Shown here: piece after piece, positions 8,757 to 18,660 of the stretch
How positions within the stretch are numbered: the stretch's first letter is position 1
How the letters are laid out: each line of letters opens with the position of its first letter
Origin: Candidatus Peregrinibacteria bacterium
Lineage (GTDB): Bacteria > Patescibacteriota > Gracilibacteria > UBA1369 > JACRIC01
DNA length: 64,000 nucleotides
Assembly: GCA_016188705.1 (NCBI GenBank)
Contig: JACPHH010000024.1
Coordinates: forward strand, 1-64,000
Direction of reading: 5' to 3'
Position numbers and translations under genes: made by a program
Notes under the pieces: model-generated
Told to the model about the DNA's origin: nothing
Seen by the model: only the letters and a program-made list of their open reading frames with translations
The model's database searches: none

Positions 8757-8790
8757 TTTTTCAGAGGTTCCCTAGGCAGTGTTCACATAA
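8757..8790 (-). repeat. R2 half-repeat (TTTTTCAGAGGTTCCCTAG) overlapping an R3 end (TAGGCAGTGTTCACATAA)
   Basis: Same motifs occur inverted at 11923-11941 and 11988-12002. Confidence 0.8.
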
Positions 8791-10891: not shown

Positions 10892-11948
10892 CCGGCTGAA
10901 AAACATCTTTATCGCATTCAGTATTGCTTTGATGATTTCTTCGACGAACGTCCATGCTGAAATTATCGAATCAACCCCTGCCACTCAAGATGTTAATAAC
11001 AAAATAAGCGACACGCTTTTTAGTGATGTCGACGAAACACATCCTTCTTATGAAGCAATCCGTTATTTCAAAAACCACGAAATCATAAAAGGCTATGATG
11101 ATGGAAGTTTTCGCCCGGAAAAACCTGTCAATAGAGCCGAAGCCCTCAAAATTATTCTCCTCGGAGCCAATTATCATTTCACAAATAATATAATTTTCTC
11201 AACTGCGACAAATGATGTTGAAAAAAAATACAGCGATCTCGAAAAAAACGCTTGGTACGTTCCCTATATTCTCAAAGCAACGGAATTAAAAATCGTGAAT
11301 GGTTATTCGGACAATACGTTTAAACCGGAAAATACTCTCAATAAAGCCGAAGCTCTCAAAATGATTCTCGAATCAAACGAGGTCACATTAGAAAAAACAA
11401 TAAAACAACTTCCTTATGGAGATGTGCCTTCCGAAAGCTGGTTTGCTGGTTATTTTCAATACTACAAAAATTATCATTTATTGGAAACAGATGAAAACGG
11501 ATCCGTTCATCCATCGCATGAATTGAGCCGCGCCGAACTCGCTGATCTTATGTACCGCTTCATTAAAAGGGAAGAATTTGCCAAAGAACCTGAAAAAATT
11601 TCTCGATCCATCACAAAAGAATTAATCACGGGTAAAGCGACTTTTTATGGCGGAAATGATGGTTTCAATGGAAAACGAACGGCAAGCGGGGAAATTTTTG
11701 ATGACACGCTCATGACCGCGGCCCATCGCGATTTGCCATTTGGAACCTGGATACGAGTCTATTCAAAAGAAGATACAACTCAATATGTGGATGTAACAAT
11801 TAATGACCGCGGCCCGTATGACTATCGTTTTATACTCGATCTTTCAGCGGCAGCATTCGAAAAACTCGCGCCGACTTCGCGTGGCTTTATCGATATTCAG
11901 TACGAAATTATCAAAACTCCATCTAGGGAACCTCTGAAAAACGTATAA
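10863..11948 (+). CDS. SLH-domain protein with C-terminal RlpA-like double-psi beta-barrel domain
   Basis: SLH repeats (LFSDVDETHPSYEAIRYFKNHEIIKGYDDGSFRPEKPVNRAEALKIIL) then GKATFYGGNDGFNGKRTASGEIFDDTLMTAAHRDLPFGTWIRV...VTINDRGPY. Confidence 0.88.
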   Translation: MNLHRKKMNNRLKNIFIAFSIALMISSTNVHAEIIESTPATQDVNNKISDTLFSDVDETHPSYEAIRYFKNHEIIKGYDDGSFRPEKPVNRAEALKIILLGANYHFTNNIIFSTATNDVEKKYSDLEKNAWYVPYILKATELKIVNGYSDNTFKPENTLNKAEALKMILESNEVTLEKTIKQLPYGDVPSESWFAGYFQYYKNYHLLETDENGSVHPSHELSRAELADLMYRFIKREEFAKEPEKISRSITKELITGKATFYGGNDGFNGKRTASGEIFDDTLMTAAHRDLPFGTWIRVYSKEDTTQYVDVTINDRGPYDYRFILDLSAAAFEKLAPTSRGFIDIQYEIIKTPSREPLKNV

Positions 11949-12445: not shown

Positions 12446-12496
12446 AAACGTAATTGAAAAAAATATTTATAGAAAAATCTGCAAATACATTTTGGA

Positions 12497-12789
12497 GTAT
12501 TTGCCCACCGCCGTTACTTTTTATTCAGATAGAAATGGAGCGGGAACTCCATTTTCGCTACGCTTCGCTATGCGCTCAAATGGCAGGAACTCACACAAAA
12601 CTCGCTTTCGTAACGAAATTTTAAATTTTTGAGCGAAAATTGTGAAGAGCGAGGAAGGCGTATCAAATAAGATACGTTGACGAGCTCTGAATAATTTGGA
12701 GCCAAAAATTTAAAATTGCAGTAGAAATGGGGTTTTGTCTGAGTTCCTGTTGTCCCCGCCCCATTTCTTCAAAAAAAGCGGTGGGCAGG
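12497..12789. repeat. R1 foldback element with nested R5 palindrome, flanked by 11-bp direct repeat TACATTTTGGA
   Basis: TTGCCCACCGCC... at 12501 and ...GCGGTGGGCAGG near 12778-12789 are inverted; TACATTTTGGA at 12486-12496 and 12790-12800; R5 arms aaattttaaatttttgagc / gccaaaaatttaaaatt inside. Confidence 0.78.
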
Positions 12790-12815
12790 TACATTTTGGA
12801 AGTCGCATGCATTGC

Positions 12816-13086
12816 TAGGCAGTGTTCATATAAAATTTTTACAGATGGAAGAGACGTATTTTGTTCAGTTCAAGGAACGACGACAAGAGTGTACCCAAAG
12901 GTACATTGAAAAGGAGTGACGCAGAAATGGACAAAATACGTCTCTTCCCTTTGGGTTGGACGGAAAGATGTCCGTCTTCTTTGTTGCTCGTCGCTTATGG
13001 AGACTTGCTCCACTGCGCTCCTCGCGCCTTGAATCGAGACATCTTTCCGTCCAACCATCGCAAAAATTTTATATGAACACTGCCTA
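12816..13086. mobile_element. MITE-like non-autonomous element (family R3) with perfect 25-bp TIRs at TA
   Basis: TAGGCAGTGTTCATATAAAATTTTT (12816-12840) is the exact reverse complement of 13062-13086; ends in TA on both sides; no credible ORF inside. Confidence 0.88.
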
Positions 13087-13149: not shown

Positions 13150-13224
13150 GGCGCCATCGTCTATTGGTTAGGACATCACCCTTTCAAGGTGCAAAGGCGG
13201 GTTCGATTCCCGCTGGCGCTACCA
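13150..13224 (+). tRNA. tRNA-Glu (anticodon TTC), CCA encoded
   Basis: ggcgcca...caccCTTTCAAggtg...gcgggTTCGATTcccgc tggcgct a CCA folds as a cloverleaf; anticodon loop CTTTCAA. Confidence 0.93.
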
Positions 13225-13260: not shown

Positions 13261-13286
13261 TAAGCAGTGTTCACATAAAATTTTTA
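13261..13286 (+). repeat. Solo R3 end (TAAGCAGTGTTCACATAAAATTTTTA)
   Basis: Near-identical to the TIR at 12816-12840. Confidence 0.8.
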
Positions 13287-15890: not shown

Positions 15891-16143
15891 ATATAAAAAA
15901 TAAAAAATATGTATCACGACATTAAAGATGAATCGAAAAAAGGTCAACACAAAAATAATAAAACATTGGAAAATTCGCACAAGATTATTTTTTTTAAAGG
16001 TTCCCATAGATCAATAAAAAAATTTAAGGTAAAATAAAAAACGTCAACGAGTTTTGAACAATTTAGAACAAAAAATTTCAAATCGTAGTAAAATGAAATT
16101 TTGAAGAAGTGCTTAAATTCACTGAAATCTATAAAAAAACGAA

Positions 16144-16709: not shown

Positions 16710-17243
16710 ATGGATCTCAAAAAACTCGAACTCGTCATTATTTTTCTCCTCATGATACCGACAGTCATTGCTCTCGTGAAAGGAGCTCCTTTTGTGCCGA
16801 CTCCACTCAAAGCCGTTCGCCGGATGCTTGAACTCGGCCGTTTAAAAAAAGACGAAAAAGTCTACGATATAGGTTGCGGCGATGGACGGATCGTGCATCT
16901 CGCTTCAAAAGAATATGGAGCAAACGCAACGGGATTCGAACTGTCCCCTCTTATTTATTGTATCGCGAAAATCTGTCAGCCTTTTTGGAAATCAAAGGCT
17001 AAAATCCAATTTCGCGATTTTCGATTTCAAAATTTTCATGATGCCGATGCCATTTTTTGTTACCTCATGCCTGACACGCTCAAAAAAATACAAAAAAAAT
17101 GGGATAAAGAATTACGAAAAGGAACTCGGGTTATTTCCTATGCTTTTCCCATCGGAAATTGGAAACCAAGCCATAAAGAAGCAAAAAATCCTGAAAAAAA
17201 TCAAGCGCCTATTTGGGTGTACGAAATAGGAAAACACCAATAA
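16710..17243 (+). CDS. Membrane-anchored class I SAM methyltransferase (paralogue 2)
   Basis: N-terminal TM, VYDIGCGDGRIVHLASKEYGANATGFELSP, KGTRVISYAFPIGNWKPSH, APIWVYE. Confidence 0.8.
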   Translation: MDLKKLELVIIFLLMIPTVIALVKGAPFVPTPLKAVRRMLELGRLKKDEKVYDIGCGDGRIVHLASKEYGANATGFELSPLIYCIAKICQPFWKSKAKIQFRDFRFQNFHDADAIFCYLMPDTLKKIQKKWDKELRKGTRVISYAFPIGNWKPSHKEAKNPEKNQAPIWVYEIGKHQ

Positions 17244-18660
17244 GCGCAAAACTCGCGATGAGCATCCAAATGTCAAAACCTTCAAAAAAAATCGAAGCGT
17301 AGGGAATACGGGACAACCAGTCAACAAAAAAAAGAATCAGAGAAAGAGAAAGCCAAGCAAAATAGCCAAAAATACTACCAAGAGCGGAAGAAAAAAACGA
17401 AAGGATAACAGCAAAAAAACCAAAAAACATCGAAAGCGGAATAAAAGGAGCTACTATAATATTCGCAAAAGGAGAAACAAGAGAAAATCGCTGAAAATAG
17501 TACAAAATCAAAGGCGCCGTAAGCGCCATTGCCGAAAGAGTAAGAGCAAATGATTCTTTGATGAATCGAAAACGCTTTCCTGAAAAAAATTTTAAAGCGG
17601 AAAGAAAAGGCGACACAAAAATAAGACCAAAAGTGGCGGCAAAGGAAAGTTGAAAACCGCGATCATAAAGCAAAATTCGAGGATTCCACAAAACCATGAA
17701 AAACCCTGAAGCGGCAAGGGCCAGACTTGTTTCATTCTGTCGACCAGAATTCAAAGCAAAAAGCCCAATAATGCCCATAAGAGCGGCGCGAACCACTGAA
17801 GCTGATGGTCCTACGAACATGGTAAAAAAAAGCACGGAAAAAATACTCAAAAGACAACGCGAACGTCTGTTTAAAGACGCAAAAAGAGCATTGGCAAAAA
17901 TAATAATGAGAGTGATGTTATAACCTGAAATAGCAAGAACATGAGTAAGACCTGTGATATTGAACGCATTCATCATTTCGGTTGAAAATGATTTACGTTC
18001 TCCAAAAAGAAGACCAAGCGCAAAACTCGCCTGTGGCTCGGGAAGAACTTGCTGAAGCTGGGTACGAAAACGTTCACGAAGAAAGTAAAGAAAAGAAAAA
18101 AAATGATTCCCCTGCCCTGACGCCAAAAAACGCGCTTTTGGATACGGCAAGGTGGCATATATTCCCTGCATGGCAAGAAACCATCGACGCTCTTCATCGG
18201 GTGATTCAAGTTTTCCAAAAAAAGAAAGCTTGTCTCCATAAAACCATTGTGGATATGGCGGAAGTGTCACGAGTATATGCCCTGGAAAAACAGGATCAAT
18301 AAATTTTACAATCACTTTCTGAAAAGACTCATTTCTTTCAGGATTTTCAACGATAATGGCAACAAACGAAGAAATCGCGTCAGAAGAAACTGATGTCTGA
18401 AATGTTGAAAGAGAAGGGATTTGCGACAAAAAAAGACGAATGATTCCAAAAAGAAAAGCAAAAATGCAAAAAAACAAAAGACGAAAACAAATGGCGCGAG
18501 AGTATCGCGGGAAAGAAAAACGCAAAAAAAGGAAAGAAAAAAACGCGCTGGCGCACAAAAGAAGTATAAAAGAGACAGAAAGATCATGAAATAATGTTGC
18601 GCTGATCACTCCCCAAAAAAAACTCACAAAAAAAACAATGATTCTATTTCTTTTAGACAT
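17209..18660 (-). CDS. comEC: ComEC/Rec2-family competence membrane protein
   Basis: NITGLTHVLAISGYNITLIIIFANALF and SASVVRAALMGIIGLFALNSGRQN are ComEC core motifs. Confidence 0.88.
   Translation of the reverse strand: MSKRNRIIVFFVSFFWGVISATLFHDLSVSFILLLCASAFFSFLFLRFSFPRYSRAICFRLLFFCIFAFLFGIIRLFLSQIPSLSTFQTSVSSDAISSFVAIIVENPERNESFQKVIVKFIDPVFPGHILVTLPPYPQWFYGDKLSFFGKLESPDEERRWFLAMQGIYATLPYPKARFLASGQGNHFFSFLYFLRERFRTQLQQVLPEPQASFALGLLFGERKSFSTEMMNAFNITGLTHVLAISGYNITLIIIFANALFASLNRRSRCLLSIFSVLFFTMFVGPSASVVRAALMGIIGLFALNSGRQNETSLALAASGFFMVLWNPRILLYDRGFQLSFAATFGLIFVSPFLSALKFFSGKRFRFIKESFALTLSAMALTAPLILYYFQRFSLVSPFANIIVAPFIPLSMFFGFFAVILSFFSSALGSIFGYFAWLSLSLILFFVDWLSRIPYASIFFEGFDIWMLIASFALIGVFLFRTPK

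Follow-up and report, generated by a model that had tools for sequence, protein, structure and literature searches.

A gene-less mobile element able to fold as a cloverleaf in a Peregrinibacteria genome, and its structure-conserved relatives in distant phyla

What moves a short stretch of DNA that ends in inverted repeats, encloses two further inverted repeats and carries no gene? The question is raised by an element in the window (the whole 64,000-nt stretch analyzed, contig C32 of G000, a 1.37-Mb draft genome of Candidatus Peregrinibacteria that is 95% complete). An initial annotation, made from the letters alone, had described a 25-bp perfect terminal inverted repeat (TIR) and two internal inverted repeats, and all three are borne out by complementarity (Table 1). 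The TIR is 100% complementary over 25 bp, and arm A is perfect over 12847-12864/12931-12948, with an imperfect extension (87%) to 12842-12871/12924-12953. The TIR pattern has three matches in the 64-kb window versus none in 100 shuffles, and the folding energy of the element, compared with shuffled sequence, gives z = -13.1 on the + strand and -12.8 on the - strand. The three inverted repeats are confirmed as real and far beyond chance. ORFs that overlap the element are mechanical only and it has no coding capacity; it is a gene-less mobile DNA able to fold as a cloverleaf.

Table 1. Features of the element and its surroundings (window coordinates)
Feature	Position	Strand	Basis or remark
Whole element	12816-13086	+	Genome copies and their ends; 271 bp
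Left TIR, helix P1 5' side	12816-12840	+	25 bp
Right TIR, helix P1 3' side	13062-13086	-	25 bp
Arm A	12847-12949	+	Covariance model R1, alignment A1 columns
Arm A outer stem	12847-12867/12928-12948	+	Read on + strand
Arm A core with tandem G.A steps	12874-12886/12908-12920	+	Predicted pairs
Arm A tip hairpin	12888-12907	+	
CCC-TTT-GGG mini-palindrome separating arms A and B	12947-12955	none	Cross-phylum alignment
Arm B	12954-13056	-	G.A form on - strand
Arm B outer stem	12954-12972/13038-13056		19 bp, perfect
Arm B core	12983-12994/13016-13032		GTTGCTCGTCGC / CGCTCCTCGCGCCTTGA
tRNA-Glu gene	13150-13224		Between element and solo TIR 13261-13285
Solo TIR	13261-13285	+	23/25 match (92%), beyond tRNA-Glu gene
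Solo TIR end TAGGCAGTGTTCACATA	8773-8789	+	17 bp
Diverged single arm, neighboring same-superfamily element	12615-12720	+	Model R1, E = 8e-7
Sites of second TIR-like repeat TARGGAACCTCTGAAAAA	8757, 11924, 13344, 16224, 16678, 24269, 36223, 43248		

The same genome holds 12-13 copies that are full or nearly so (92%-95% identity), spread over many contigs along with about ten partial copies, and the outer TIR was found at 64 sites versus none for a reversed control pattern. One copy (C20:12884-13154) lies inside a dispersed repeat. When its flanks are joined with one TA, they match an element-free copy of that repeat on contig C13, which has a single TA, at 88% over 85 bp. This is direct evidence of discrete, precise insertion at TA with duplication of the TA. 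Judging from this empty site of another copy, the TA at each end of the window element (12816-12817 and 13085-13086) most likely stems from target duplication as well. At the ends that were read, a pyrimidine precedes the left TA and a purine follows the right TA (a YTAR target). Thus, the initial description of the element as MITE-like and TA-bounded holds, and the element is dispersed, on the evidence of the genome copies and the TA-duplicating empty site.

The TIR also occurs without the rest of the element. The solo TIR beyond the tRNA-Glu gene is probably a remnant of another copy, and the TIR tip TAGGCAGTGTTCACATA is conserved and common to G000 and a second genome, G010. Nine palindromes in G000 (40 bp, one of them 42 bp) consist of two TIR ends joined at AAAATTTT, with no arms, and G010 has a 57-bp palindrome that likewise lacks both arms. 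These could be either internal-deletion products, as the occurrence of AAAATTTT in both TIRs would allow, or the smallest mobile form. In the window, a second TIR-like repeat (TARGGAACCTCTGAAAAA) is present at eight sites versus 0.2 expected, with the copy at 11924 forming the last codons of an ORF, and TIR-only palindromes of the cloverleaf family directly abut this repeat.

The perfect arms had initially been attributed to recent mobility or to selection for structure. Recent mobility is not shown, given that the copies differ by 5%-8% and several are truncated; selection for structure is supported, in that pairing has been maintained. Paired stem changes are seen among the genome's own copies, and one copy (L009) alone carries several double changes. 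Across 18 lineages, double changes occur in 31 of the 36 pairs of arm A, with 151 double-change cells versus 56 in shuffles (0 of 500 shuffles reach 151), and the arm A covariation score of 0.54 falls to 0.29 or less once partners are slid. Compared with partners taken from other lineages, an element's own stem partner is the best in 11 of 11 lineages for the TIR, 11 of 11 for arm A and 7 of 11 for arm B. Covariation therefore shows that pairing is preserved in the TIR and arms even as their letters are replaced. The perfect arms are a sign of maintained pairing and not of youth, because nearly perfect arms are also found in distant relatives whose letters differ.

The core of each arm hardly varies (CAAGGAACGACGACGA...GGAGGAGTGACGCAG or an inverted counterpart), and tandem G.A pairs are predicted in it. 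The predicted pairing of core A is G-C, (G.A, A.G), A-T, C-G, (G.A, A.G), C-G, (G.A, A.G), C-G, (G.A, A.G), and the window copy, which scores E = 8e-18 with covariance model R1, has lost the G.A step that adjoins the tip. Core B, which contains CGAGGAGC/GCGACGAG, has two predicted G.A/A.G steps on the strand opposite to that of core A. It should be noted that core invariance is overstated where the core pattern itself was used to find the loci; elements found by homology to the window (in G042, G034, G037 and G039) also show a near-invariant core.

How far does this structure extend? Among 59 relatives, seven other genomes, all from other families of the same order, have the same layout, with 67%-77% identity over the matched part. 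A scan for the core pattern, using one genome per species, returned 34 stretches where about one is expected by chance from base counts, and about 30 of the 34 are real elements as judged by their surroundings. Four matches (L082, L094, L095 and L109) have no element around the motif and were taken as chance. Elements found in this way occur in Patescibacteria records (Peregrinibacteria, Peribacteria, Gracilibacteria and Paceibacterota) and, outside that group, in Omnitrophota, Elusimicrobia, Planctomycetota and Deltaproteobacteria/Sandaracinaceae (myxobacterial). Several of the relatives can be linked to named records through identical elements, G026 for example to a Gracilibacteria record, which would place G000 among the Patescibacteria near them. 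The geometry common to the phyla is TIR, arm A, CCC-NNN-GGG, arm B, TIR, although some elements are one-armed; in the cross-phylum alignment, most lineages have the CCC-NNN-GGG palindrome as the link between the arms. Measured from core A, most two-armed elements have the start of the TIR 55-60 bp before it and the end 160-170 bp after it, whereas clear one-armed elements end 52-56 bp after core A. Stem letters are unrelated between lineages yet still pair, and the arm cores are better conserved across phyla than is the TIR. This is a real, structure-conserved family of mobile elements with a wide distribution. The initial annotation had named two outcomes as counting against its proposal, namely no further full copies in related genomes and no compensatory changes in the arms. 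Neither outcome holds: full copies recur in G000, the layout recurs in relatives, and the covariation analysis found compensatory arm changes both within the genome and between phyla.

Several relatives have features of their own. In one genome (G137, L189/L196, C24:21568-21773), the arm A model picks up both arms, in inverted orientation, suggesting that arm B derives from an inverted copy of arm A that has diverged. In G283 and G264 (L195, L200, L188 and L190), the TIR looks like a tRNA 3' half (GGTTCGAATCCCGCGTCC), and its copies differ by compensatory changes. In G010, several cloverleaf copies (L154, L155, L158 and L162) have a second palindromic repeat (CAGACCGTCCGA...GACGGTCTG) in or near their hairpin tips, as if this repeat targeted hairpins by preference.

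The G.A cores differ in strand between the two arms, and the outer stems were examined for strand polarity. A one-sided transition in a Watson-Crick pair yields G.T or A.C with equal prior chance. Isolated outer-stem mismatches were scored per element and counted once per lineage, position and type, with each arm read on the strand that carries its G.A core. The G.T to A.C ratio is 20:3 in arm A (+ strand) and 21:4 in arm B (- strand), or about 6:1, with p-values of 5e-4 and 9e-4 that are optimistic because related lineages are partly dependent and the test followed a smaller count on overlapping elements. In addition, the G.A strand is the more stable strand in eight of eight arms, using both RNA and DNA folding parameters. 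A single-strand mutation bias is disfavored because the two arms point to opposite strands. Based on the mismatch counts and folding energies, selection apparently acts on each arm in its folded single-stranded form, with the two arms on opposite strands; the polarity fits DNA and RNA alike.

These results bear on two rival explanations. Templated correction of quasi-palindromes at replication, a process known in general for DNA palindromes, could keep the arms complementary with no selected function, and the multiple double changes in L009 speak for it. However, it predicts neither a bias of G.T over A.C nor one of opposite sign in the two arms, and it leaves the near-invariant non-Watson-Crick core letters and the fixed spacing unexplained, so we consider it very improbable. 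Alternatively, the element could be a structured RNA, spread by transposition, whose transcribed fold acts as a processing site, terminator, mRNA stabilizer or small RNA. The very stable RNA fold, strong covariation and tolerance of G.U are consistent with this, but because the arms are polar for opposite strands, no single transcript would hold both selected forms. Of 19 copies between genes, seven are between divergent genes (11 are in tandem and one is convergent, based on a crude ORF call). Occurrence is also patchy, with arm A in seven of 294 Patescibacteria genomes under strict filters that lose weak matches, and no Rfam family matches the element. A structured RNA is, in our opinion, an improbable explanation overall.

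The element could instead be an ordinary MITE whose TIR is recognized, through its outer ~17 bp, by a DDE transposase (IS630-like or IS5-like, with a TA/YTAR target). The arms would then be passengers or stability aids, and the transposase would have been lost or be missing from the assembly. The TA duplication, the YTAR target at readable ends, the TIR tip common to two genera and the TIR-only palindromes at separate sites all agree with this. The initial annotation had pointed to a Tc1/mariner/IS630 partner and to an autonomous transposase with the same ends, and neither was recovered. Five families were profiled in the genome (Y1_Tnp, DDE_3, DDE_Tnp_1, rve and RVT_1). DDE_3 (PF13358) has no match in G000, which leaves an IS630/Tc1-mariner partner there unsupported, and the DDE_Tnp_1 and rve transposases were rejected for the same lack of a match. 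No longer (1-2 kb) element with the same ends was found in G000, G010 or the planctomycete G059. A composite transposon between two TIRs on contig C19 was dismissed, as the interval holds housekeeping-type genes, and a planctomycete TIR pair 5.8 kb apart has no transposase evident by eye among its ORFs. Because insertion sequences are a frequent cause of assembly breaks, the absence of a transposase from draft genomes carries little weight, and the missing autonomous partner argues against a present partner, not against a past MITE origin. The better conservation of the cores than of the TIR across phyla, and strand-specific selection on the arms, are unexpected if the arms are passengers, and we find the ordinary MITE explanation doubtful.

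Other candidate enzymes were also set aside. Y1_Tnp (PF01797, RAYT) is present in G034, G037 and G039 and was found in none of G000, G010, G026, G030 and G042. G000 and G010 hold most copies, and RAYT was rejected because it is missing in these main carriers and because there is no arm A match around the Y1 loci sampled. Reverse transcriptase (RVT_1) occurs in G010, G137 and G283 and not in G000, with no arm near those loci. The phages, plasmids and viral contigs searched gave no credible match to the element, and open-licence papers searched by core sequence and by topic gave none.

Our preferred reading, to which we assign a probability of roughly 0.55, is that of a non-autonomous element, REPIN-like and bounded by TIRs, which is moved by an enzyme that probably recognizes hairpins. 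When the locus becomes single-stranded, during replication or DNA uptake, each strand would fold one arm in the recognized G.A form. An enzyme acting in trans would bind the hairpins and cut at the TA beside the TIR, and the element would then be joined to a new YTAR site. With a hairpin for each strand, the element could be processed from either one, as in REP/iREP pairs and REPINs. The letters of the TIR and outer stems would drift because pairing and fixed core spacing matter more than letters, and the enzyme may be lost, supplied in trans or encoded in an unassembled part of the genome. Against this reading, the tip common to G000 and G010 and the nine arm-less palindromes suggest that the TIR itself may be recognized. 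More speculatively, and in our judgment unlikely, the elements could form a separate cross-phylum class of mobile DNA recognized by folded shape, through an enzyme family that has yet to be connected with mobile elements; the signal would then be the fixed spacing and the opposite-strand tandem G.A ladder, with TIR and stem letters free.

The neighborhood of the element contains further repeats. The diverged single arm upstream is enclosed by an inverted pair (GCCCACCGC at 12503 and GCGGTGGGC at 12786), and parts of this one-armed neighbor (window 12490-12800) recur near 16049, 29449, 41525, 48260 and 58384. Five of 21 copies and fragments are within 150 bp of a tRNA gene; loci noted as tRNA-adjacent (<150 bp) are L001, L003, L014, L015, L018, L061 and L098. 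On the - strand, an ORF at 17209-18660 resembles, by eye, the DNA uptake channel ComEC, and imported single-stranded DNA would be compatible with the mechanism proposed.

How does the element compare with known systems? Like REPINs and BIMEs moved by RAYT/TnpA-REP (PMC3116915, PMC8266576), it is extragenic and non-autonomous, comprises two inverted hairpin units within a larger hairpin, and has conserved mismatches inside the hairpins, with one form per strand recognized (here, presumably). The two inverted hairpins on opposite strands that characterize a REPIN are present as inverted cores of opposite polarity, and their recognition is what we propose. It differs from REPINs and BIMEs in its TIRs of 25-30 bp and the duplicated TA, and in the size of its arms, which are much larger; arm A has a tandem G.A ladder of four steps. 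The alignments show no GTAG (or variant) tag at the core or at the base of the stem, and the main carrier genomes lack a Y1/RAYT gene. Since both the tag and, in those genomes, the RAYT gene are missing, we do not file it as a REPIN.

The nearest published architecture is that of the palindrome-enclosed REP dimers CGTC-1 of H. neapolitanus and GTAG-15 of A. variabilis (PMC3733652), in which inverted REP-like hairpins sit in a palindrome that is effectively a TIR. Those dimers are species-limited, whereas the cloverleaf geometry and core recur across phyla with differing stem letters. The same paper reports no dedicated transposase for CGTC repeats, whose superfamily has a CGTC tag, an 8-9 bp stem starting with AT, a 4-5 nt loop and a CCA tail (PMC3733652). 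Membership in it was rejected, as the stem of the cores is longer, contains mismatches and has an additional hairpin at its tip, and their CGTC is internal rather than a terminal tag.

Correia elements and Coxiella QMITEs (PMC10969869, PMC5896051) are similar in size, TIRs, short target duplication, intergenic location, lack of coding and a strongly folding transcript (predicted here). A bacterial MITE usually descends from an insertion sequence resident in the genome and is confined to a single species or genus (PMC10969869, PMC5896051). The cloverleaf element shares with MITEs its dispersed, short, non-coding TIR copies and, in the C20 copy, target-site duplication; a same-ended autonomous element was not found in G000, G010 or G059. 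Insertion at TA with TA duplication is as in IS630/Tc1-mariner elements, although not specific to IS630. In contrast to bacterial MITEs, no insertion-sequence partner was found, and conservation is higher in the interior than at the ends.

Integron attC sites and IS200/IS605 ends keep their pairing and unpaired landmarks while stem letters vary, and mismatches or extrahelical bases set strand choice. The cloverleaf element likewise keeps pairing and unpaired landmarks with varying stem letters. Unlike those sites, which are named as single-stranded DNA hairpin sites (PMC8266576), it has two opposite-strand arms in one TIR-bounded unit, and no matching integrase or IS200 transposase was seen at copies. 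If our reading is right, MITEs and REP/REPINs, usually treated apart, are united in one architecture across very distant bacteria, and the question of what moves REP-like repeats without RAYT takes a testable form. The near-invariant core with its G.A ladder offers ready-made bait for finding the enzyme, and the spread of the family can be mapped with the covariance model.
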